Assembly (NCBI GenBank): GCA_022226935.1
Contig: CP092081.1
Span: 528,540 to 592,539, forward strand
Reading direction: 5' to 3'
Length of the DNA: 64,000 nt
Source of the DNA: Nitrospira sp.
GTDB lineage: Bacteria; Nitrospirota; Nitrospiria; Nitrospirales; Nitrospiraceae
Shown: positions 51,013-64,000 of the stretch, piece by piece
How the letters are laid out: each line of letters opens with the position of its first letter
Position numbering within the stretch: position 1 is the first letter of the stretch
Notes under the pieces: generated by a model
Seen by the model: the letters and a program-made list of their open reading frames with translations, nothing else
What the model was told of the DNA's origin: nothing
Databases searched by the model: none
Position numbers and translations under genes: made by a program

Positions 51013-52275
51013 ATGTCGGAAGATCATTCGGCCTCGGACTCAAGTCGCGGCTGGCATCTTATCAGCACCAGAGATTTTGGTCTGTTGTGGTGGGGGCAAA
51101 CGACATCTCAGATCGGTGAGGGGCTCAACAAGGTTGCATTGTTGTGGTTTGTCTACGAGTTGACCGGGTCGGCCATGAAGATGACCATGGTCGGTCTCCT
51201 GCAGACCATTCCGCCGCTGGTCTTAGGTCCGCTTGTCGGCGTCTATCTGGATCGGATGCCCAAGAAGCCTGTCATGGTGTGGGTCGATCTTCTTCGCGCG
51301 TTGCTCACCTTACTCATCCCCACGTTATACGCGCTGGACAGGCTGTCGATTACAGGACTCTACGGCCTTATTTTCCTCACGTCGGTTGTCTCCACCGTCT
51401 TCGGTCCTGCTCTCGTGTCTGCGGTGCCGTTATTGGTGCGGCCCACCGAACTCATGTCGGCGAATGCACTCATTCAAGGCACCAATAATATCGGGATGCT
51501 GCTCGGCCCGGCGATCAGCGGCATGATGATCGCTCTCATCAACGCGGAAAACGTGCTGTTCGTCAATTCCGCCACGTTTCTGATCTCAGCCCTGTGCCTC
51601 ATGCCGATTCATTTCGCTCCATCGCCTGTCAGGGCCACCGAGCATTCGGCGTCCGTGTGGCAGGAACTCAAGATGGGATTTCGATTCATCTTCGGCCAGC
51701 AATCGATGGTCCTCACGCTGGTGATCATTTCGTCGCTCTACAACCTCGGGGTGAGCGCCTTCGTGTTTATTTTGCCCGTCTATGCCAAGGAGTTTCTCCA
51801 GGTTGGCCCGGTGCAATTGGGCTGGTTGTGGTCGGCCTTGGGTGTCGGGATGTTAGCGGCCTCCACGTGGTTGGCGTGGAAAAAACAGAGTGATATACAA
51901 GGGCGACTACGCATCGTCGTGAGTGGCATGACAATCGGCGGGCTGGCGGTGTGCAGTTTGAGTCTGCTCGAAACGCCCCTGATCGCGGCGGGGATCGTCA
52001 TCATCGTGGGAGGCAGCACGGCGGTCCTGAATCCGATCATCTGGGCGCTCCTGCAGGAAGTGACGCCGGAACATTTGATCGGTCGCGTGGTGACCACCTT
52101 CAGCGTAGGCTCCATGGCTTCGGCGATGGCGGGGATGACGGGCTTCGGGTGGGTCGCTGAGGCGATCGGGCCGGCTGCGAGTCTGATAGGCCTCGGTTTG
52201 GTCCTGTTGCTCACAGCGGCCGTCGCGGTGCCTTGCGCTCGCAGAGCCTGTCCCATCCCTGCCGCGCAGGGGTGA
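51013..52275 (+). CDS. MFS exporter (EntS-like), copy 1
   Basis: This is a 420-residue, 12-helix transporter behind CAGGAGGATTCGCC. The start FGLLWWGQTTSQIGEGLNKVALLWFVY and the loop VYLDRMPKKPVMVWVDLLRA are typical of the MFS_3/EntS-like group, which exports siderophores, macrolides or other drugs. The domain FGPALVSAVPLLV and RVVTTFSVGSMASAMAG complete the pattern. The next gene is a clear paralogue, so the two arose by tandem duplication. Confidence 0.9.
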   Translation: MSEDHSASDSSRGWHLISTRDFGLLWWGQTTSQIGEGLNKVALLWFVYELTGSAMKMTMVGLLQTIPPLVLGPLVGVYLDRMPKKPVMVWVDLLRALLTLLIPTLYALDRLSITGLYGLIFLTSVVSTVFGPALVSAVPLLVRPTELMSANALIQGTNNIGMLLGPAISGMMIALINAENVLFVNSATFLISALCLMPIHFAPSPVRATEHSASVWQELKMGFRFIFGQQSMVLTLVIISSLYNLGVSAFVFILPVYAKEFLQVGPVQLGWLWSALGVGMLAASTWLAWKKQSDIQGRLRIVVSGMTIGGLAVCSLSLLETPLIAAGIVIIVGGSTAVLNPIIWALLQEVTPEHLIGRVVTTFSVGSMASAMAGMTGFGWVAEAIGPAASLIGLGLVLLLTAAVAVPCARRACPIPAAQG

Positions 52276-52362
52276 GCGTGATCGTCGCGAATCTAAGGAC
52301 AATGCGTGGGACAATTCATTGCGCCATCTCTTTCCGCTGATTCCTCTTCCAAGGCAAACGTT

Positions 52363-52368
52363 TATACT
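52363..52368 (+). promoter_or_regulatory. -10 box giving a leaderless start for the second MFS gene
   Basis: TATACT (5/6 to consensus) at 52363-52368 is followed by six bases (GTCGAT) and the ATG at 52375. This is the same geometry as at proC. No ribosome-binding site precedes that ATG. The -35 region is poor, so the call rests on the -10 box and its spacing. Confidence 0.4.
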
Positions 52369-52374
52369 GTCGAT

Positions 52375-53601
52375 ATGGTTCACGCCCGCCGGTGGCTGCT
52401 GACACGCGATTTCAGTCTCATGTGGTGGAGCCAGGTGTTGTCCCAGGTTGCTGAAGGTATCAGCAAGCTGGCGCTGCTCTGGTTCGTCTATGCGGTAACC
52501 GGATCGCCGCTCAAGACGACCGCCATCGGGCTTCTGCAGACGCTGCCGCCGATCCTCTTCGGCCCATTCATCGGCGTCATCGTCGATCGGTTTCCCAAAA
52601 AAGCCATTCTGATCGCGAGCGATGCGGCCAGAGGACTATTGATTGGCCTGATTCCCTGCCTGGTGTCGATCGAACATTTCACGGTCGAATCTCTCTACAT
52701 CCTCACATTCCTGTTTGGCATAGCCACTGCCGTGTTTGTGCCGACCCTGTCATCCGCTGTTCCCTTCATGGTGGCCCGTCCGCAGTTCACGGCGGCGAAT
52801 GCGCTGCTGCAAAGCACGACGAGTCTGGGCATCATCATCGGGCCGGCTGTCAGCGGAATCGGTATCGCGTTCTCGGGATCGCAGGATGTGCTCTGCCTGA
52901 ATGCGCTGACCTATTTCGCGTCAGCCGCCTGCCTATTGCCGATCCGGCTGCGAGTGGTGGAGCAGGCGTCCGATGACAGCGCGGGCTGGAGACCGTTCTT
53001 CCGCCATCTCCTCGAAGGCCTACGGTATGCCTTTCTGACGCATCGCACGTTGCTGATCCTGATCGTCCTCGCCTCCGTCTACACGTTCGGCAGCGGCGCA
53101 TTCACGACACTGTTTCCTGTGTTTGGGCGGCAACTGCTCGGTCTCGGCCCGGTCGAGGTCGGCTATCTCTGGTCCTGGTTGGGAGTGGGATTACTTCTCT
53201 CATCGATTGGTCTGATCCGGCTGAGCGCCTGGAACCTTCGTAAGCGGCTCTTGGCGATTGCGGTGTCCTGCGCGCTCGCTGGTCTGGCCGTGACCGGCCT
53301 GACGTGGACCGATAGCATCGGCCTAGCGTCGGCCTATGTGGTCTGCATTGGCATTGGCCTGGGCACATGGACGCCGATCGCCTGGGGCATCATTCAAGAA
53401 GTGGCTCCGCCCGGAATGGTCGGTCGGGTGATGGCCGTGTACACGGCCATGGCCACCGCCACCTCCATGCTAGGCATGAGCGCTTTCGGCTGGGTGGCGG
53501 AATCGTTCGGCTCCAGCGCCAGCGTCATGGGAATCGGCGGAGTGATGGGTGTGCTGGCCTGGGGCAGCGCCTGGTTCGGCGGAAAAGTGGGAAGGGGATA
53601 G
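52375..53601 (+). CDS. MFS exporter (EntS-like), copy 2
   Basis: From ATG 52375 the product has 408 residues; an in-frame GTG at 52306 would add 23 polar residues not matched in the paralogue. FSLMWWSQVLSQVAEG, LALLWFVYAVTGSPLKTTAIG and IVDRFPKKAILIASDAARG align with the first copy almost without gaps. Both carry the same MFS_3 architecture. The two differ enough to suggest separate substrates or a heteromeric exporter. It is 99 bases from the first copy with an apparent promoter of its own. Confidence 0.87.
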   Translation: MVHARRWLLTRDFSLMWWSQVLSQVAEGISKLALLWFVYAVTGSPLKTTAIGLLQTLPPILFGPFIGVIVDRFPKKAILIASDAARGLLIGLIPCLVSIEHFTVESLYILTFLFGIATAVFVPTLSSAVPFMVARPQFTAANALLQSTTSLGIIIGPAVSGIGIAFSGSQDVLCLNALTYFASAACLLPIRLRVVEQASDDSAGWRPFFRHLLEGLRYAFLTHRTLLILIVLASVYTFGSGAFTTLFPVFGRQLLGLGPVEVGYLWSWLGVGLLLSSIGLIRLSAWNLRKRLLAIAVSCALAGLAVTGLTWTDSIGLASAYVVCIGIGLGTWTPIAWGIIQEVAPPGMVGRVMAVYTAMATATSMLGMSAFGWVAESFGSSASVMGIGGVMGVLAWGSAWFGGKVGRG

Positions 53602-53943: not shown

Positions 53944-54597
53944 ATGTTCAAGCACCCCCCAGTGATCTCACTTTTGATGGTGCTTGTCACCGTGAGCAGC
54001 GCCGGTTGCAACTCTCTTCCTCAGAACATTGCCCTGGGCGCCGCGATCACCACGGCGGTCGGAGCTGTAATTCCCGGACATGACATCGAGCAAGTGTATT
54101 ACTTGGGGTCGTTCGATCCGCACGAGCAAGTGCCGCCCGCTCTCTACCGCGTACGTGTTCGCGGGCAGGCCAGCATCATTAGCTGGATGCGGTTCGGCTC
54201 AGGGTGGGTGCCGGCAGAACTGATCGATTCTCTGGGAAGCTCAGTAGAAATCAACAAGGCGGACGGAAAGATCCAGTTCACACATGAGGACAGCAAGAGT
54301 CTGGCGAAGCTGGCAATTGGCCGCCGCTTAATGCAATTCGGGCCGGAAGGATTTCGCGAAGTGCCTAAAGAGCATCGCTTGGTCATCGTCATGGGGTCCG
54401 ACCCGGAAAACTTTTTTGCCGCCATGGACGAAGCTCTGGACGCCGTGAGTCAAGGCAAAGCTGATCAAGACAACCGTGCACTGAACGGCCTGCTGTTTGA
54501 AGCTCTGACTATTGTGAAGGCGGAAAAGCAGGTCATCGAGGCTCAGTTGGAGTCGGCGAGGGAGCAGTTCCCCGAGACCGAGAGGAGTGGCCTATGA
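53944..54597 (+). CDS. lipoprotein of unknown function, first gene of the operon
   Basis: This is a 217-residue lipoprotein: ISLLMVLVTVSSAGC is a complete signal with lipobox. A Gly/Ala-rich hydrophobic patch follows (NIALGAAITTAVGAVIPGHD), then a strand-rich middle (YRVRVRGQASIISWMRFGSGWVPAE) and a helical end (LNGLLFEALTIVKAEKQVIEAQ). AGCAGGAGGCAG precedes the ATG. The stop overlaps the next start in ATGA. Not recognised as a known family; probably an envelope component. Confidence 0.7.
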   Translation: MFKHPPVISLLMVLVTVSSAGCNSLPQNIALGAAITTAVGAVIPGHDIEQVYYLGSFDPHEQVPPALYRVRVRGQASIISWMRFGSGWVPAELIDSLGSSVEINKADGKIQFTHEDSKSLAKLAIGRRLMQFGPEGFREVPKEHRLVIVMGSDPENFFAAMDEALDAVSQGKADQDNRALNGLLFEALTIVKAEKQVIEAQLESAREQFPETERSGL

Positions 54598-57500
54598 AGT
54601 CCTCGATCACCATCGAGACCAAAACCTGGGCGGCAACTGTACTCCTGGGCGCTCTCCTCAGCGGTTGTGCTGTTCTGACCGTCGATGTGGATGTCTACAA
54701 AGGCGCCTTGGTCAATGAAGAGCATGTGCAGTTGCACCAGTTAGTGGCGCTCACGACGGCGGCCCAGCCGATGTTAGTGCATCTTCGAGACAACCTTGAG
54801 TGGCCTAATACGGAGGGCAAACCTCCGAAAGGTGCTACCACGTATCCCGGCAACTATGAGGGGCAATGCGAAGGGAAGATATGGAATGGAAGTTGGTATG
54901 AGACGGGACATGTCAAGACACCGGAGGATTGGGTATCGGAAGCATCGAAGCCTTGGTGGAACGCATTTTGGGAGACATTGAAAGAAGGCCTCATAAACCC
55001 TCTGTGCCGACCACATTTCAAGAATCCTTATGCGCGCGCAGTGAACAACGTTTTGCGTCTTTACGACGACCTTGCCGATTCTGATCTAAGCCCCCATGCA
55101 CGGAAACTGAGGCAAGCGGTAGAACAATTGCGGGCAGCCACGTCTGATCCTAAAAAGGATCAGGCCATCTATGTTGACCTTGCGTCGGGGTTCAAACCGG
55201 ATACGGTTCTCACGCAAGAGGGGCTGATGAATCTGAAACAAGGCTACCGTGAACTATTGGTGTCCTCCTCCGGGAGCGAACCCAGCAGAAAGGTCGGCCC
55301 GTTGATGGACGCCCTCAAAGAGCTGAGGAACAAACAGGAACCCGTTAAAGCCCGCAACAAATTGGAAGACGAGCTAGTGTCCGTCTGGAAAAACAGGGAT
55401 ACTTATCAGGAGAAAGACAAAATCTACGATCGGCGTCTACCGTTCAGAGCTGTGTGGAAGTTTCTTGGCGGAGGAGTGGCCGATACGTTTCTTGCCGAAG
55501 TGACTCGGGAATTATGCCCGCCAGGTCGTAACGGCGACAGGACCTGCGACGCGCTCTTGAAACGCACGCAACAGCTTGCCGATGAGTACTGGAAGTCGAG
55601 AAAGGCCGTCCGAGACATTTGGCTGGAGAGCCTAGGTTTGTTGATCGATGGCGATCGATTACAGCGCGCCAATTCAAAAGTGTATGACGATCTGAAGAAC
55701 AAAGTGATCAGGCTGGTTGTTGAGGTGACTAATGTCCGGCATATCGCATCGGCATTGGATCGGCTCGATCGTGATGGACAGTGTTCGCTCCTGAGGAATC
55801 CACTGAGTCTCGGCTTATTTTGCGAGGTTGGCAAGGATAGTCAGCCGATCTGGAGCGAAAATAATGTGAATAATCAGGTTGGCTATTTTGAGGAAGTCTT
55901 GCGGCGCAATCTTTCCAGCGCACCGGCAGATACGGCCCATTTCCTTCTATACCTCGACGGCCTAGAAAGCACTGCTGCCCCGAAAACCGGCATCGCGAAT
56001 GTATTGGTTGAAGCTGTCAACAAAGTGAGCCCCCAACGCCTGGTGAGACTAGGGCTTAATCGAAGCTTTATTGAGGATCGTAAGTTGGAAGGGTCGCCGG
56101 AGCTCTTCGAATTTGTAGACGATGTAAGTCGAAAGGTAGCCCAGGGCTTTGAGCGAGGCCGGCTGCCGGATGGATTGCACACGCTCACAGAAGCGTTCTT
56201 GAAATCACACAATGGCAATACAGGCACGAGCGATTCGCATGAAGAAAAAATTCTCCTCGATGCCTTGGTGGAATTCGCGCAAAAACTACTGTTCCTAGCG
56301 AACCATGAAGGCCTATCTTCCCCGCCAGGAACGTCTGGCCTCATTCTGGGAGGCGCCGAGAAAATCAATCGCGGATTATTCGGCGACTCGCTCACAGACG
56401 CGGGGTTGTACGGCCTCTTTGGGTCAGGATTAGCTGAAAGTCGAAAACAACAATATGTCCGAGTCTTGCAGGCAGTCGGCAATTCCATTTTATTTTCGGC
56501 CAATGAGCTGCGGGAGCGGGAGCGGTATAAGGAGCAGAGTAAAGATAAGGTTCGAGCGGAAATTGCCGCCGTGCAGGCGGTGTATTCGCCGGACCCGCAG
56601 AAGATCCTTGACGATCTTATCCGCGGGCTTCGAAGGGAACAGGTCATCGCTCAGAATCAGCTAGCTGAGGCCACGGCTCGGAAAGCGGTGATCGACGGAC
56701 AAATGACCGATTTGCACTCCCTTAAGCAAAAATATTCCACTGAACAGGCGAAGGCCGAACTCGATCGGCAGAATTATCTGATGAAGCAAGGTCCGCTGAA
56801 AGCCGCTCATGATCTGTTGACGCAGAAGATGATCGAGAAGATCAAGGCTCAGTGGACGGCGAGGGGAAAAGACACGGTCGCCGATCCTGCCAAATTTTTG
56901 ACCGGTCCGGACGGGATAGAACAGGAGCTGACCACCATCCGGCAGGCGCTGGATGGTATTCCCACCCCTGAAGAGGCTCGCAATCTTGATGAAGGCGTCA
57001 AGTATGTGAAGTCTTCCGAAGCCAAGGCGGCATTTGAAGCTTATTGCACGATCAACCGACAGACGTCGCTCAAACGATCCGAGTTGTTAGATGCGTTTGC
57101 TGCGCATATGCGTGAATTGGAAGCCGCACGGGCGGCGCGCGTGACGCAGTACGAGAAAGGCATAAAGGAGAAAGAGCAGGCGGTCCGCGAAGTACAGGAC
57201 AAGATTACCCAGATGGACGCGGAATCTAGGCGGCTGGCGTCCGTCATCGCATCGCTTCCGAACACCCACGTTCAGTTAAACACGGCAGCGACGGTTATCG
57301 AAGCTTTACAGGCTGAGGTCCTGAAAGAAGTTGCGCAGCATGATCGCTTCGTTTCGCCCGACGCGTTATATCTTTTGCTCGCCACTAATATGAAGCGCAA
57401 AGAAGATGCTGAGGCTGATGCGAGCAAGAAGCAACCATATCAAGTCGCTCTAGTTGTCTTGTCGCGTCGTACGCCGCCGCCCGGCCTCCCTCCGCTGAAT

Positions 57501-58625
57501 CCCACAGACTACAAAAGTCCTCTCACCGTCATGGACGATGTGATTGCATTGCTGCGCCATCGGCAGATGATGGCGGTGGACCGATTTGGAAGAGGCTCTG
57601 ACGAAGACAAGAAAGCGACTGAAGCCTTGGAAAATGCCTATCAGCATCGAGCCGGGATGGTCTATATCCGACCGTCGTCGGCATATCTCCGGACGAGTTT
57701 TCCTTCTACTTCATTGCAGGACGATCCCAACTTAGCTTGGGACAACATGCTGCTCAAGCAGGGCATCAGGAACCTGCCCTTCTCCTCGCAGTTGCGGGAT
57801 ATTCTGGACCCCTCGGTGGAACGAGATCGTATCCTGACCGCCGAGCTGGATAAGCAATATTGGCAAAACATCAATCGTGTGCGCGTTTCGGGAGCCGGCC
57901 GTACCAACCAGGCTCTCGTCAAAGACGACGTGGGCAATTGGTATGTGAAGCAGTACTACGGCGACACGGAAAAAATCGTCAAGTCGGCTAAGCACTTGGC
58001 TCTGTACAGTTTGGGAACCAAGCTGCCCATCGATCTTTCTCGGGAGTTGCAGAAGGCCTCCGCAACGAAGGAGGAGTCCAAGAAGACTGAGGCAGAGAAA
58101 GAAGCTGAGCTGCCGCCCCTCCAGCAGGTGTTTGGGAAGCACAAGGCGGCGTACCAGGCGCACATCGCTGAGACGGCAACGCGGCTTGTTACATTGCATG
58201 GGAGGGACAATGAAAAGACCCTGCATGCAAAAATCGCTACTGCGTGGAAGGGTGACGGCGAGCCCTCGACGGATGCAGATCTCATGAAGGCGCTCTCAGT
58301 GGCGTTGGAAGAAGAAGTCGCACGGTGGGATGCAACCCTCGATCCGTTGAAGGAGGCTTCAGATCAGGATCGGGGCCTTGCCATTACCAAAGATCTTCGA
58401 GCGCTGGCCAAACTGGAAAAACAGTTGTCGGCGCGGATACAAAAGATCGAGAAACCGGAGGCGCTGAAGACCAAAGCCGCCAAGGAAGTCCACAGAGTTG
58501 TGGGACATGAACTGATCGATCTGCTGAAAAGCCACAAGCAGGCGTTGGACCGCTATGAGCAGGCCGTTCTATTTATCGCCGATGCTGCCAATCCGAAAGG
58601 CCCAAAGCAGGAGCAGGGGAAGTGA
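54594..58625 (+). CDS. giant coiled-coil lipoprotein (1343 residues)
   Basis: The ATG overlaps the preceding stop by 4 bases. The signal LLGALLSGCAVL is a clear lipobox, so this very large protein should be anchored to a membrane facing the periplasm or cell surface. Residues about 30-600 are mostly helical. Residues 640-910 are long coiled coils (EQVIAQNQLAEATARKAV, EKGIKEKEQAVREVQDKITQ). A folded segment near 1090 contains QALVKDDVGNWYVKQYYGDTE. A charged helical end follows (TKAAKEVHRVVGHELIDLLK). I recognise no catalytic domain. Codon and base composition are more AT-rich than in upstream genes. Confidence 0.8.
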   Translation: MKSSITIETKTWAATVLLGALLSGCAVLTVDVDVYKGALVNEEHVQLHQLVALTTAAQPMLVHLRDNLEWPNTEGKPPKGATTYPGNYEGQCEGKIWNGSWYETGHVKTPEDWVSEASKPWWNAFWETLKEGLINPLCRPHFKNPYARAVNNVLRLYDDLADSDLSPHARKLRQAVEQLRAATSDPKKDQAIYVDLASGFKPDTVLTQEGLMNLKQGYRELLVSSSGSEPSRKVGPLMDALKELRNKQEPVKARNKLEDELVSVWKNRDTYQEKDKIYDRRLPFRAVWKFLGGGVADTFLAEVTRELCPPGRNGDRTCDALLKRTQQLADEYWKSRKAVRDIWLESLGLLIDGDRLQRANSKVYDDLKNKVIRLVVEVTNVRHIASALDRLDRDGQCSLLRNPLSLGLFCEVGKDSQPIWSENNVNNQVGYFEEVLRRNLSSAPADTAHFLLYLDGLESTAAPKTGIANVLVEAVNKVSPQRLVRLGLNRSFIEDRKLEGSPELFEFVDDVSRKVAQGFERGRLPDGLHTLTEAFLKSHNGNTGTSDSHEEKILLDALVEFAQKLLFLANHEGLSSPPGTSGLILGGAEKINRGLFGDSLTDAGLYGLFGSGLAESRKQQYVRVLQAVGNSILFSANELRERERYKEQSKDKVRAEIAAVQAVYSPDPQKILDDLIRGLRREQVIAQNQLAEATARKAVIDGQMTDLHSLKQKYSTEQAKAELDRQNYLMKQGPLKAAHDLLTQKMIEKIKAQWTARGKDTVADPAKFLTGPDGIEQELTTIRQALDGIPTPEEARNLDEGVKYVKSSEAKAAFEAYCTINRQTSLKRSELLDAFAAHMRELEAARAARVTQYEKGIKEKEQAVREVQDKITQMDAESRRLASVIASLPNTHVQLNTAATVIEALQAEVLKEVAQHDRFVSPDALYLLLATNMKRKEDAEADASKKQPYQVALVVLSRRTPPPGLPPLNPTDYKSPLTVMDDVIALLRHRQMMAVDRFGRGSDEDKKATEALENAYQHRAGMVYIRPSSAYLRTSFPSTSLQDDPNLAWDNMLLKQGIRNLPFSSQLRDILDPSVERDRILTAELDKQYWQNINRVRVSGAGRTNQALVKDDVGNWYVKQYYGDTEKIVKSAKHLALYSLGTKLPIDLSRELQKASATKEESKKTEAEKEAELPPLQQVFGKHKAAYQAHIAETATRLVTLHGRDNEKTLHAKIATAWKGDGEPSTDADLMKALSVALEEEVARWDATLDPLKEASDQDRGLAITKDLRALAKLEKQLSARIQKIEKPEALKTKAAKEVHRVVGHELIDLLKSHKQALDRYEQAVLFIADAANPKGPKQEQGK

Positions 58626-58671
58626 AACCAGTCGTAAAGCGCAGAGGAGAGGCGAACAGCCAGAACAAATT

Positions 58672-59502
58672 ATGGGTATTGATTCAGGAACTTTAGGCAC
58701 GGCAGCGCTTGCCATCGGGGCGCTCGGCACGGCTTCGTACGGTGTTGTCGATGGACTCAAGTTGGTCTCATGGATTGATCTGGCCGGGTTCGAGCGCATC
58801 TTTGCGGTGGGAGGCAAGGAGGGGGGACGGCGATTCTTTCCGACGCACAGGGCCACCCTCGATCCATTCCTGCCTGCATTGAGAATTGCCTATGGGAGTG
58901 ACGTCATGGAGTTACTCCGCGCTCAATATCGAGCAAGCCGTGCAAGTGGCGACCTACTTCGAACATTGCGGCAGGGGGTGCGGATCGGATTTGGGATGAT
59001 GGCGGTGGAAGACATCACGTCGGTGGCGGTTAAGCTGGGAATCAAGCAGCAGGTTGCTGCACTCGCGGCGGAAGCGATCGACCGTGCCCGTCGGCAGCGG
59101 GCGGACGCTTCCCCAAGTGAACAGTCCAGATCTCTGGATGAGCCAGGGTCTCTTTCAGAACCGGCTATGACTGATGAACAGCGGTCCGCGATGGCTCGTC
59201 TGGAGACTATGATCGATGCCCGCATCGATGCCGCCCTGGCTTTGGCCGACAGACAATATGTGACCCAGACAAAGTTGCTGGCCATGTTGGTTTCGCTGGC
59301 CATCTCATTTCTGGTTGGCTGGTTCATTGGAATGGAGGGTGATTGTGTCCCCGCGGATACTTTGGCCACGTGCGCGGCCAAAGTGCCGGCCAAATGGACC
59401 TGGTGTCTCATCGTTGGCCTTGCCGCCGTGCCTCTTGCCCCGGTCGCGAAGGATCTTTCTACTGCCCTCCAGGAAGCCGCGAAGGCGTTGAAAGCGCGAT
59501 GA
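58672..59502 (+). CDS. membrane protein of unknown function
   Basis: From ATG 58672 the product has 276 residues; no good ribosome-binding site is at normal spacing, so the start is provisional. A short hydrophobic N-terminal helix (TAALAIGALGTASYGVVDG) is followed by a soluble domain with LRAQYRASRASGDLLRTLRQ. Two C-terminal helices come next (LLAMLVSLAISFLVGWFIG and WTWCLIVGLAAVPLAPVA). A helical charged linker (MARLETMIDARIDAALA) precedes the last pair. The stop overlaps the next gene in ATGA. Confidence 0.68.
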   Translation: MGIDSGTLGTAALAIGALGTASYGVVDGLKLVSWIDLAGFERIFAVGGKEGGRRFFPTHRATLDPFLPALRIAYGSDVMELLRAQYRASRASGDLLRTLRQGVRIGFGMMAVEDITSVAVKLGIKQQVAALAAEAIDRARRQRADASPSEQSRSLDEPGSLSEPAMTDEQRSAMARLETMIDARIDAALALADRQYVTQTKLLAMLVSLAISFLVGWFIGMEGDCVPADTLATCAAKVPAKWTWCLIVGLAAVPLAPVAKDLSTALQEAAKALKAR

Positions 59503-60392
59503 ACGCGTTTGTCCTCAGCTTGCGCGACCAAAGATTTGGCGGGGCTGTCACTTCAGGCGTGCTCTACAAGGCTCTGCCGTATTGGGATGTGTGGTGGAAT
59601 GATCGCTTGCCTGATTTTGAACTGCTGACTCGTGGACAACGTCTTACGGTGCTTCTGCACGGCTATAACAACGGCCTTGAGGAGGGGCGTGAGAAGCTGG
59701 TGCGGTTCATCGACTTCTTGGAACAGAAGGGTTCAATGGATCTGATGCTGGCGGTCCTTTGGCCTGGGGACTCCTGGGCTGGCGCGGTCAGCTATCCCTC
59801 GGAAAGTCGCGATGCCGACGACAGTGCCGATAACCTGCTGACTTGGCTTGTGCTCCATGTGCATGAGAGTGCCCGTGTGGCGTTTGTCGGCCACAGCCTC
59901 GGGTGCCGCGTCGTCATGCGCGCGGCCCAACGCATGGCGCGAGACGTTTCGGTTAAGAAGCCGATCTTGGATCGCATCTGTTTGATGGCGGCGGCAATTG
60001 ATAGCGATTCGTTGGGCAGGAACGAGCCAACCTCTTATCGCGACGCCGCAACGCAGGCCGACCGGATTGCGGTTCTGTCTTCACAGGAAGATAGGGTTTT
60101 GCAGGTGGCTTATCGGCTGGGTGACTCGGTCCAATCCTGGTGGCCGTTTTCAGGAGAGCGTTCCGTGCGGGCGCTGGGCCGGTATGGTCCAGAAGGGTGT
60201 TCTCCCGAGGTATTAGCTAAGATCGAATCACACATGGCAAGTCCTGGTCGAGGGATCGGCCACAGTGACTATTTGCCGAAATATCCTCTATCTGTGCCAC
60301 CACAGAATCAGACGACGGCGGACAGCGAGCAGTTCGTGTTCGAGTTCTTGAGTCGCCTCCAGAATCCAAACTGGCCGGCGGAAAGACCCTGA
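59499..60392 (+). CDS. cytosolic alpha/beta-hydrolase (DUF900-like)
   Basis: The product has 297 residues, without signal or membrane helix. The oxyanion strand LTVLLHGYNNGLEEGREKLV and the nucleophile elbow VAFVGHSLGCRVVMRAA resemble DUF900-type hydrolases, which also begin with an HGYNN motif. IGHSDYLPKYP near the end could hold the catalytic His. The WPGDSW segment between strands is also typical. The substrate, a lipid or peptide ester, is unknown. It is coupled to the membrane protein before it by a 4-base overlap. Confidence 0.8.
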   Translation: MNAFVLSLRDQRFGGAVTSGVLYKALPYWDVWWNDRLPDFELLTRGQRLTVLLHGYNNGLEEGREKLVRFIDFLEQKGSMDLMLAVLWPGDSWAGAVSYPSESRDADDSADNLLTWLVLHVHESARVAFVGHSLGCRVVMRAAQRMARDVSVKKPILDRICLMAAAIDSDSLGRNEPTSYRDAATQADRIAVLSSQEDRVLQVAYRLGDSVQSWWPFSGERSVRALGRYGPEGCSPEVLAKIESHMASPGRGIGHSDYLPKYPLSVPPQNQTTADSEQFVFEFLSRLQNPNWPAERP

Positions 60393-60400
60393 AGATAAGG

Positions 60401-61390
60401 GTGCTGTGGTTGTTTCCTATAGACCGTTTCCAGAAGAAAATTCTCGCAGTTAGTCTAGCCGTGTCGCTGGCATCTTGTGCGACGGTGGAGTCATTGGTCT
60501 GCCTGCCTCACGGCGAGGATGTCCCGTTCGATATCCAGATGAACAAGCTGGAAGCATGCATTAAAAGCGACAAGAAAGACATGAACGACAACGATGATTT
60601 TGAAGCGGGTTCGGTTAAGCATCCTGTTTATTGTTTCCCAGGCGACCGAAGTAAGCCGCCTGTGCTGTTGCTGCATGAGTTGCCTGGCTTATCCGGGAAG
60701 ACGTTGGCTTATGCGAAGGAACTGTCAGAGGACTTCACGGTGTATGTGCCGCTCTTGTTCGGAGAGCCGAACATGCACTCGGCTCTCTGGGGCTCTACCG
60801 CATTTTGGTTGAATGGGGAGTGGTGGGGACTGGAAAGCGGATCGAGTGACATCCTAGGATGGCTTCGTGCAGTCGTATCAGAGATTGAGCGGGTGCATCC
60901 GCAGCACCACATCGGCGTAATCGGCAACTGTTTGACGGGCTCGCTGCCCTTGGCGCTGCTCAGTAATCCAAAAACCCCCTCCGCCCCCCCTAGAATCCAT
61001 GCCGTCGTCTTGGCCCAACCTACGTTGCCCCTGACGATATTCGACAACAGGGAGAAGGTCAGAAGTTCCCTGGGCATTTCACAGGACGAGGTTAAGGCGG
61101 CAGAACAGAGCTCCGCAAGGATCTTCTACCTGCGGTTTGAACAAGATTGCATCTCAAAACCCGAAAAACGGTGGAAGGTTTGGGATATCTTTACGAAACA
61201 CAGCACCGTTCCTGATCGTGTGATCCCACGTCAAATTCCGAAAGACCAACACCCGGTCGACGAGGCACATAGCACCTTGATTGGGGAATGGAGCGAGACA
61301 GAGTCGGGCCGCGCTTCACGAAATGCACGCCAGGACGTCCGACGATTTCTTCTGGACCCGACGACATTCAAGATAGCGGGCGAACAATAG
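60401..61390 (+). CDS. dienelactone-hydrolase-like lipoprotein
   Basis: The GTG at 60401 gives 329 residues, 8 bases after the preceding stop. A signal with lipobox LASC (VSLAVSLASC) anchors it. The hydrolase core has PPVLLLHELPGLSGKT and the elbow IGVIGNCLTGSLPLAL, with Cys177 as nucleophile instead of Ser, as in dienelactone hydrolases. HELPG likewise matches that family. HPVDEAHSTLIGEW could supply the His. A lipid-anchored member of this mostly cytosolic family is unusual. Confidence 0.78.
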   Translation: MLWLFPIDRFQKKILAVSLAVSLASCATVESLVCLPHGEDVPFDIQMNKLEACIKSDKKDMNDNDDFEAGSVKHPVYCFPGDRSKPPVLLLHELPGLSGKTLAYAKELSEDFTVYVPLLFGEPNMHSALWGSTAFWLNGEWWGLESGSSDILGWLRAVVSEIERVHPQHHIGVIGNCLTGSLPLALLSNPKTPSAPPRIHAVVLAQPTLPLTIFDNREKVRSSLGISQDEVKAAEQSSARIFYLRFEQDCISKPEKRWKVWDIFTKHSTVPDRVIPRQIPKDQHPVDEAHSTLIGEWSETESGRASRNARQDVRRFLLDPTTFKIAGEQ

Positions 61391-61407
61391 CCGTGACGGA
61401 GTGAATC

Positions 61408-61824
61408 GTGATGCACGAGCATTCAATGCAGGATTCGTCCGTAGAGCCGACTCCGCAATGGTATAGGCGAAAGGGTTGGCGATTTGGAAGTATGTATCTC
61501 CATGTGACCGCTTCAATCGTTCACGTGGCAATCTGTGTGGCTCCCTTAGGGGCCGCTCTTTTCCAGGTGGAAGAGCTATTGAAGTGGTCGAAAGGTCATC
61601 CCTGGGTTGTTCTCTGGTGGATTTCAATTGTCGCGCTGGGATACCCGGCCTGGGCGTGGTTCGAAACTCTCGTCTTTGAAAAGTGGGTAAGAAATCTGCC
61701 GGTGGCTCAGCGGAAGATCGAGCGAGCCCATTACCGGCTTCACGCCGGCATGGCTAAAAACTTCTGGCAGGCAGTCATGCACATGTATGCCATCGCGAGT
61801 CTCATCGGAATTGCGCTGAAGTAG
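61408..61824 (+). CDS. small membrane protein
   Basis: This is a 138-residue protein starting with GTG 61408 or ATG 61411, 17 bases after the hydrolase. Helices are SMYLHVTASIVHVAICVAPL, WVVLWWISIVALGYPAWAWF and a shorter MHMYAIASLIGIAL at the C-terminus. The loop WVRNLPVAQRKIERAHYRLH is basic and should face the cytoplasm. No family recognised. It is probably a membrane partner of the neighbouring hydrolases. Confidence 0.65.
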   Translation: MMHEHSMQDSSVEPTPQWYRRKGWRFGSMYLHVTASIVHVAICVAPLGAALFQVEELLKWSKGHPWVVLWWISIVALGYPAWAWFETLVFEKWVRNLPVAQRKIERAHYRLHAGMAKNFWQAVMHMYAIASLIGIALK

Positions 61825-61894
61825 TTAGTTATGTATGGGCCGGTGAATGAATAGCTGCACTCGGGCGTCCATCACATAGGAAGAGGCTTCTGAT

Positions 61895-64000
61895 ATGTCC
61901 GACGATAACGGTTCATCTCGTCCTCGCCACTACATCGTCGTCGTGCATGGCATCGGCGAGCAGCGGCACAATGAAACCACGGTGGAGGTGGTCAACCGGT
62001 TTGCCACTGCACGTGCGAAGGAAAAGCCTGGTTCTCCTTATGCGGCGCTGTTGCCTGGAAGTCTGTCGTCGCTTTCGATTCGCCGGAAGGGTGGAGGGCA
62101 AGGTTGGTCCGAGTTCGAAGGGATTCCTATCAATCCCGACAATGAGTCGAAACCCTTTGACGGCACTCGCGCGACCACCACATTAGGGAAGAACTTTCGT
62201 TTTGTTGATATGCGATGGGCGGACATCCTGCAGTCTCACCATGGGGTGTATGGGTCAAGTACCAAGCAATGGACCGCCTCTCTCCTCGCCCGTCTTCAGC
62301 CGCCGTTCACCAAAGCCGAGGTATCGGAGCCATGGGTCATGCCCCTGTTGAAGGAAATGAAGGAAACTCTGTTGCCCGTCCAAGACTTGCTGAAGTGGCA
62401 TGTCCCTGCGATCGAAAAAACTGTTTTCCGCGATGTCATTGGCGACATCCACTTATATGGTGACTATACACGCACGCGCGGACAAGCGGTGCGCCGTTTC
62501 CATGCGCAGTTGGATCAGATTCATCTGCGCGACTACATTGAATGGTGTCGCTTTGAGCGAACGTGCAGGGATGAACCCTATGTGCCGCCCGTGTATACCA
62601 TCGTTGCCCACAGCCTGGGATCGGTGTTGAGCTTCGATGCCCTTGTGTACGCGTTTGCGAAAGACAGCATTCGAGAAGGGAGCGATCGGCATGAGAGTGG
62701 ATCGCTTCCCTTTCCCGGCTATACAGAGCAAGAAGAGTCCGAACACGAATCCTGGTTGGGCTTGCTTTCAGACCTCAGTAAACCGCCTCGTGATACGACT
62801 CTCCCTCACCCGCATGAGAACTGGGCGACCTTGAGCGCTTGTTATGCTCAGTTTCGTAAAAGGCACGGCATACGGTCCCCGACAACGGATGCGCCCAGGG
62901 CCGGCGACCTGCCTCTCTTGCTCTGGCGGGATCACGTCAAACATTTCATCACGCTCGGCTCGCCTATCGACAAGTTTTGTGTTTTGTGGCACCACAATTA
63001 TCGGCATATGGGGCCAATGTATTATTCGGCCAAGGATGCGTGGTGCAAGGGGTGGCTGGATGATTCGATCACACATCGTATCACCCACTACAATGTGTGT
63101 GACGAGCAGGACCCCGTCGGCCATCATCTTGATGTGGCACGTAACTGTTCTGCATACAACAAGGTGTTTCGGACCGACATTCGGGCGACTTATCGCGATG
63201 TCGTGTTCCGGCGTTATGCTGTGCCTGGCCTTGCGCATGTTCAATACTGGAAAGATCAAGACCTCTTCGATCGATTGATTCGCGAGGTGATAGACGAGCA
63301 GCCAGCGCCCCAAGCCGATGGCACGAGATCCAAAACCCAATCCCACTTAGGCCAATTAGTTGAGAAGCAGTTCTTCGACGTTTCCGGGGTCTATGACATG
63401 GCATTGGTCTGGGCCTATGCCAGGATTCCCCTCATCGCATCGGTCACGACGGGTTTGCTGCTGAGTTATGGCTGGATCGGATGGCATTATTGGGGTTTTT
63501 CCCCCTCCTGTGCCTTGGCGCTGCTTGGGGCAATCCTGCTCTGGATTTGTCCCAAACCTATTGAGGCGTATCGCAAGGAAGTGAAGACAGAACATGTCGC
63601 GAGAGAACACAAGTTGACGAAGCGATTGCTACCGTGGAAGCTCCATCGAGGAATCCTTGCCAATGTGGTGGCAGGAGCAGTGGAATGGCGCCGTATCCTC
63701 CTATCACTTAATGACCATCCGAACTCAGCCACCCAAAAAGCTGTGGCAGAAAAGAATGAGATCCGATTGTCATTAGAGACGGCCGGCAACTTTAATCGGG
63801 TGTTTCGTCTAAGAATTATCGGTGGCGCTGCAGTATTTCTCCTCGCCTCGGGTGTGGTTTGGTGCTGCCACGAGTATCTTAGTGCGGCGGCTGACTATGC
63901 GGCAAGGCCGCCGGCGTGGTATGTCGCGATCTTGACTCTGATGACAGTTTCCGCTGTGTACCTTATTACTATGGCATATGTCAGATATATTTTTGCGTGT
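61895..64000 (+). CDS. membrane-anchored alpha/beta-hydrolase (runs off the window)
   Basis: An ATG at 61895, behind GGAAGAGGC, opens a frame with no stop through the window end, so at least 702 residues. The N-terminus RHYIVVVHGIGEQRHNETT supplies the oxyanion loop, and IVAHSLGSVLSFDAL supplies nucleophile Ser240. FITLGSPIDKFCVLW and CDEQDPVGHH follow, and AVPGLAHVQYW may hold the His. Membrane helices lie at about 508-545 (a pair), 641-660 and 675-702. HGIG-type hydrolases fused to C-terminal membrane helices are rare and poorly described. Confidence 0.8.
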   Translation, partial: MSDDNGSSRPRHYIVVVHGIGEQRHNETTVEVVNRFATARAKEKPGSPYAALLPGSLSSLSIRRKGGGQGWSEFEGIPINPDNESKPFDGTRATTTLGKNFRFVDMRWADILQSHHGVYGSSTKQWTASLLARLQPPFTKAEVSEPWVMPLLKEMKETLLPVQDLLKWHVPAIEKTVFRDVIGDIHLYGDYTRTRGQAVRRFHAQLDQIHLRDYIEWCRFERTCRDEPYVPPVYTIVAHSLGSVLSFDALVYAFAKDSIREGSDRHESGSLPFPGYTEQEESEHESWLGLLSDLSKPPRDTTLPHPHENWATLSACYAQFRKRHGIRSPTTDAPRAGDLPLLLWRDHVKHFITLGSPIDKFCVLWHHNYRHMGPMYYSAKDAWCKGWLDDSITHRITHYNVCDEQDPVGHHLDVARNCSAYNKVFRTDIRATYRDVVFRRYAVPGLAHVQYWKDQDLFDRLIREVIDEQPAPQADGTRSKTQSHLGQLVEKQFFDVSGVYDMALVWAYARIPLIASVTTGLLLSYGWIGWHYWGFSPSCALALLGAILLWICPKPIEAYRKEVKTEHVAREHKLTKRLLPWKLHRGILANVVAGAVEWRRILLSLNDHPNSATQKAVAEKNEIRLSLETAGNFNRVFRLRIIGGAAVFLLASGVVWCCHEYLSAAADYAARPPAWYVAILTLMTVSAVYLITMAYVRYIFAC

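Follow-up and report, generated by a model that had tools for sequence, protein, structure and literature searches.

Lipase effector/immunity pairs of the type VI secretion system (T6SS) combine lipase-type enzymes (Tle) with immunity proteins (Tli) that are outer-membrane lipoproteins (PMC13133936). YbbAP-TesA couples an envelope membrane complex to a lipid hydrolase (PMC12646458), and DUF900 is a protein family of unknown function (PMC11878206). Here, we describe a unit of seven genes, g1 to g7, from a Nitrospira genome (single contig, 4.23 Mb), located at the end of the window, that is, the whole stretch of 64,000 nucleotides that was analysed (C1:528540-592539). The original prediction held that no named system fits this set, and profile searches against Pfam, NCBIfam and PADLOC likewise gave none for the whole of it; the literature, as far as it was covered, yielded no description of the seven genes together.

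All seven genes run in the same direction, from 53944 to ~64114, with g7 crossing the window end. Neighbouring genes overlap by ATGA at 54594 (g1/g2) and 59499 (g3/g4), and the remaining gaps are 46 (58626-58671), 8 (60393-60400), 17 (61391-61407) and 70 bases (61825-61894), in exact agreement with the prediction of seven co-directional open reading frames. The lower GC content than upstream, which had been read by eye, was borne out by measurement, with 54.5% across g1-g7 versus 59.2% in window positions 1-53943, where individual 10-kb blocks vary between 58.3 and 60.1%; the count of 28 G/C in 60 bases at 55681-55740 is also exact. Promoter and terminator scans detected sites no more numerous than in shuffled sequences, so the reading of g1-g7 as one transcript rests on spacing. 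No tRNA boundary was present in the window and no integrase was seen adjoining g1-g7.

The first two genes, g1 (53944-54597, forward strand, 217 aa) and g2 (54594-58625, forward strand, 1343 aa), encode lipoproteins with the lipoboxes SAGC22 and LSGC25, respectively, and are the core partners of the unit. The g1 product displays a beta-rich domain followed by a long C-terminal helix, and that of g2 is mostly helical, with the N-motif VDVDVYKG and a C-terminal beta module, NINRVRVSG..KDDxGNWYVK. Neither protein has a describing match in Pfam, NCBIfam, PADLOC or PDB, and a PDB profile search with both returned no relevant match. AF2 models of g1 (pLDDT 71) and of an 812-aa g2 homologue (pLDDT 68; mostly helical, with a single three-stranded sheet) are of middling confidence, a quality that cannot demonstrate a new fold; fold searches with these models found nothing at E<=0.001. 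The top VIA-align matches of the g1 model (Z up to 5) fell mainly on the single long helix.

Searching 84,980 species genomes with a g2 profile recovered 30 loci, distributed over Nitrospirota, Nitrospinota, Planctomycetota, Verrucomicrobiota, Alpha- and Gammaproteobacteria, Rokubacteria and Desulfobacterales, and in nearly all of them g1 lies directly upstream of g2, often with an ATGA overlap. Every tested genome with g2 also carried g1 (18/18), and the g1 alignment (A4) comprises 20 members from 5 phyla. Most of the distant genomes hold g1-g2 without an adjoining hydrolase, and such lone pairs sit in unremarkable chromosomal surroundings in alphaproteobacteria, planctomycetes, Verrucomicrobia and gamma symbionts. 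These observations show that g1-g2 is an obligate, widespread and previously undescribed pair and that it forms a unit independent of the hydrolases; since it mostly lacks a hydrolase in distant genomes, a function of the core pair itself must exist. The two proteins define two widespread, co-travelling families that are absent from Pfam, NCBIfam and PADLOC.

The frequency of g1 was 12/246 genomes in the phylum, and 7/61 in the order of G281, 2/198 in the class of G276 and 4/77 in the phylum of G285, where the figures for the groups of G281, G276 and G285 take in genomes in which g1 was already known; some of the genomes counted are fragmented, and several neighbourhoods stop at contig edges. 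No g1 copies were found in viral contigs or plasmids. Because the g1 and g2 trees are weakly supported across phyla, we do not claim inter-phylum transfer. Elsewhere in the family, three loci (L033, L071 and L072) have genes for a patatin and for a membrane protein after g1-g2, and at L054 the pair is followed by an HGIG hydrolase. The patatin gene adjoining g1-g2 at L072:5794-7517 (G151) is broken by two transposase-like open reading frames.

Divergent, shorter relatives, g1' (258-427 aa) and g2' (462-585 aa), are again paired. Alignment with hhalign linked g1 to g1' at 99% (E 4.6e-18) and g2 to g2' at 96% (E 2.2e-9, over 51 columns). At the hotspot described below, g1'-g2' is found together with a membrane protein and a patatin. 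In several Nitrospiraceae, the same two small genes precede both g1-g2 and g1'-g2', suggesting that the two small genes and the lipoprotein pair formed an older four-gene unit; on the strength of these shared genes, the lipoprotein pair looks old and the hydrolases would have joined it later. The small genes encode ~103-153 and 159-165 aa (L022:6393-9936, L034:8297-13048 and L072:7711-13488). DUF1353 proteins, a family known chiefly in phages, are encoded downstream of the lipoprotein-pair cassettes at L026, L027, L029 and L038, in Nitrospira and one Verrucomicrobia genome.

Three of the remaining genes encode putative hydrolases. The 297-aa product of g4 (59499-60392, forward) matched the alpha/beta hydrolase family DUF900 in Pfam (PF05990, E=1.4e-13) with 51.3 bits versus a gathering cut-off of 20.5, and it carries a GHSLG nucleophile elbow, with S133, D198 and H255 invariant in the orthologue alignment A7. 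The 329-aa lipoprotein-type product of g5 (60401-61390, forward) carries a Cys nucleophile in the motif GNCLTG, and C177, D249 and H290 are invariant in 7 orthologues (alignment A6). It had no Pfam match at E<=1; tblastn matched it at 23-32% similarity to 20 plasmid records, with a lowest E of 3e-13, and many of these are annotated as dienelactone hydrolase. Relatives of g5 adjoin DUF900 or HGVG hydrolases at L117 and L118, and the latter locus (L118:5509-12256, G228) also encodes two lipoproteins, one with a metallo-beta-lactamase fold and one of 644 aa, beside the g5 relative and the HGVG hydrolase. The 739-aa product of g7 (61895-64000 in the window, continuing to ~64114, forward) combines HGIG and AHSLG motifs with C-terminal hydrophobic membrane helices; S240 and H448 are invariant, as are both D403 and D406, either of which is a candidate acid. 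No g7 was found in phages, and PDB searches with g5 and g7 produced nothing useful. A distant g7 relative on the Caballeronia grimmiae plasmid p1 (L120:8911-10920) has been labelled an MFS transporter, which is probably a misnaming on account of its membrane helices.

The other two genes encode membrane proteins. The g3 product (58672-59502, forward, 276 aa) is an inner-membrane-type protein with C-terminal hydrophobic helices, seen with the g1-g7 unit only, and the g6 product (61408-61824, forward, 138 aa) has hydrophobic helices and a weak DUF898 similarity under the cut-off. No confident model in Pfam, NCBIfam or PADLOC was obtained for g1, g2, g3, g5, g6 or g7. The motifs originally claimed for the hydrolases, GHSLG/DUF900 in g4, the Cys nucleophile in g5 and HGIG with C-terminal helices in g7, were all recovered, and the sequence features support the view that all three hydrolases belong to one superfamily and are catalytically intact. 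Their proposed placement in three compartments, lipid-anchored or cytosolic, is a prediction read from signal-peptide/lipobox and hydropathy patterns.

The order of g1-g7 is kept in five other Nitrospira genomes (G025, G026, G019, G017 and G007), although the 20 kb examined in G017 did not include a g7, and G004 contains a decayed copy (locus L021) in which g2 and g7 are in pieces and g3-g5 are intact. Values of dN/dS between 0.08 and 0.32 across all seven genes denote purifying selection, and together with the recurring order they set the unit apart from a chance grouping. Synonymous sites have diverged unevenly along the unit (pS 0.18-0.47 in g3-g4 versus 0.55-0.69 in most g2 and g7 pairs), which suggests, at the sequence level, that parts of the unit were swapped between lineages by mosaic exchange; codon bias may be an alternative source of this unevenness. 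As a set, g3-g7 was seen in Nitrospira loci only. The comparison of gene neighbourhoods upheld the conserved order within Nitrospira and, in distant genomes, found g1-g2 alone to be widespread, and it gave no support to the notion of seven genes forming a single indivisible system kept across distant genomes: only g1-g2 travel widely, and the hydrolases make up a cargo that is exchanged at a hotspot in Nitrospira.

This hotspot has an MFS gene on one side and a TPR/periplasmic block on the other. Two MFS transporter genes lie on its left side, the first of which (51013-52275, forward) adjoins the unit in other genomes too, and the second (52306-53601, forward) anchors the hotspot, being present in 26/29 genus genomes with variable content after it. 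The seven-gene unit occupies the site in G000, G025, G026, G019 and G017. In G018 and G022 the occupant is g1'-g2'-membrane protein-patatin-DUF1353, as is probably the case in G014, whose copy is divided between contigs. G024 has only g7 there. G015 carries a Tle1-like lipase (PF09994, E=8.6e-73) with membrane helices together with one papain-like/hydrolase protein and one membrane protein, G027 carries a membrane protein plus a papain-like/hydrolase protein, and G005 has a PGAP1/DUF676-like hydrolase. Six genomes (G021, G010, G012, G023, G020 and G008) have the site without a cassette, and in G007 and G004 the unit is located away from it. The G015 cassette (L127:1687-7259, in a genome without a VipB match) has the helices of its Tle1-like lipase at the C-terminus, a 653-aa papain-like protease bearing a VGHSAG hydrolase-like part, and a membrane protein of 312 aa. 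Each occupied hotspot read to its end contained at least one hydrolase. Such enzymes make up one or two per cent of genes, and, judged on this general base rate, six different cassettes each with a hydrolase are far from chance. Collectively, these observations show that g1-g7 is one cassette of a variable site at which the hydrolase type is exchanged. Nitrite-oxidising bacteria exchange lipase-type cassettes at one chromosomal site, and the occupied, swapped and empty hotspots provide a ready comparison series.

Judged from its genes, the unit is probably an envelope-lipid or conflict system, and the envelope-remodelling, lipid-modifying or defence role raised in the original prediction is possible. 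The best explanation overall, which we hold tentatively and with somewhat less than even confidence, is that the lipoproteins would form an outer-membrane scaffold for esterases or lipases associated with the membrane, which would act on lipids of the envelope during conflict or stress. The conserved gene order, the purifying selection, the invariant catalytic residues, the recurrent pairing of g1 with g2 and of g1' with g2', and the other lipase-type occupants of the hotspot count in its favour. The g1 and g2 proteins, being lipid-anchored without Asp at +2, are probably attached to the periplasmic face of the outer membrane, from which the mostly helical g2 would extend towards the inner one; g3, g6 and g7 are predicted to reside in the inner membrane, g5 to be lipid-anchored in the envelope and g4 to be cytosolic. 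At the envelope, the three hydrolases would most likely cleave ester linkages in lipids or in other acyl substrates, and g1-g2 may serve them as scaffold, sensor or brake. Because hotspot cargo is swapped in sister genomes, the set is patchy and its GC is low, a role in conflict or stress (phage, competitor or membrane damage) appears more likely than one in housekeeping metabolism. Counting against this explanation are the lone g1-g2 pairs, the absence of PADLOC matches and of viral or plasmid copies, the lack of a tRNA boundary in the window or an adjoining integrase, and structure models of middling confidence that matched no fold. A bolder and rather unlikely proposal is that g1-g2 is the chassis of a modular envelope defence or competition system, patchy across phyla, controlling interchangeable membrane-attacking lipases, which would be the alpha/beta hydrolase trio, a patatin or an HGIG hydrolase. 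If g1-g2 do control hydrolases, they would represent a new way of coupling the outer membrane to lipid-cutting enzymes.

A role in envelope maintenance, with g1-g2 as a housekeeping outer-membrane assembly or tether and the Nitrospira esterases recycling or remodelling lipids in growth or stress and having no part in conflict, is somewhat unlikely and deserves the most serious hearing among the rivals. The lone pairs in ordinary chromosomal settings of several groups, the strong purifying selection and the spread of the hydrolases over three compartments would all be expected of it, whereas the patchiness of g1, with 12/246 in the phylum and 2/198 in the class of G276, a hotspot that is empty in close relatives and a hydrolase type that is swapped, not conserved, speak against it. 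The hotspot also bears on two explanations of low probability. The genes may merely have accumulated at a shared insertion site and not work together, as the retention of g7 alone in G024 and the occurrence of g5 relatives elsewhere would allow; however, the order repeated in five further genomes, the presence of the unit at another site in G007 (and, decayed, in G004) and the conserved g1-g2 overlap make this improbable. Similarly, the two MFS genes directly upstream of g1, together with the commonness of dienelactone-hydrolase-like and alpha/beta hydrolases in catabolism, are compatible with a catabolic cassette in which hydrolases degrade an imported ester substrate and lipoproteins bind it. 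Yet the MFS genes remain where the cassette is missing, the swapped cassettes carry a patatin or a Tle1-like lipase with membrane helices, and the unit has no oxidoreductase or regulator, which leaves this proposal highly doubtful.

The Tle1-like protein at the G015 hotspot makes T6SS lipase effector/immunity pairs the nearest thought. By analogy with Tle-Tli, the hydrolases would be antibacterial lipase toxins and g1/g2 their outer-membrane lipoprotein immunity, and, apart from the Tle1-like catalytic domain itself, both the lipoprotein nature of Tli proteins (PMC13133936) and the recurrence of hydrolases near lipoproteins argue for such an arrangement. However, the sheath gene (VipB/PF05943) is absent from the complete source genome, making T6SS delivery unlikely, and also from G015, G017, G018, G019, G022 and G026. 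In addition, g7 has membrane helices and a secretion signal was not seen, g2 family members at 800-1600 aa are very large for immunity proteins, and g1-g2 usually occurs without a lipase. We consequently regard a T6SS-type role as a poor prospect and return to the scaffold explanation as the preferred one.

In comparison with described systems, the unit resembles Tle/Tli pairs in joining lipase-type enzymes to outer-membrane lipoproteins and departs from them in the membrane helices of its hydrolases, its giant lipoprotein and a source genome without a sheath gene; no Tle family match was obtained for g4, g5 or g7, the only Tle1-like protein being that of L127 in G015. Neither the seven proteins nor ten relatives of theirs credibly matched a PADLOC model. 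YbbAP-TesA (PMC12646458) is based on an ABC transporter, and such components are absent from g1-g7. At L026, L027, L029 and L033, patatin-like phospholipases (PF01734) accompany related lipoprotein pairs in place of the alpha/beta hydrolases, whereas the g1-g7 unit has none. The g5 protein shares with the dienelactone hydrolase family its Cys nucleophile, conserved Asp and His and 23-32% similarity, but differs in its lipoprotein signal and in belonging to a lipoprotein/membrane unit and not to an aromatic catabolic operon. For DUF900, no described case of an operon with a lipoprotein pair was found, and the likeness lies in g4 itself, through its GHSLG elbow and a score above the gathering cut-off. 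We therefore assign g4 to DUF900 and describe g5 as dienelactone-hydrolase-like; the whole unit is left unclassed.
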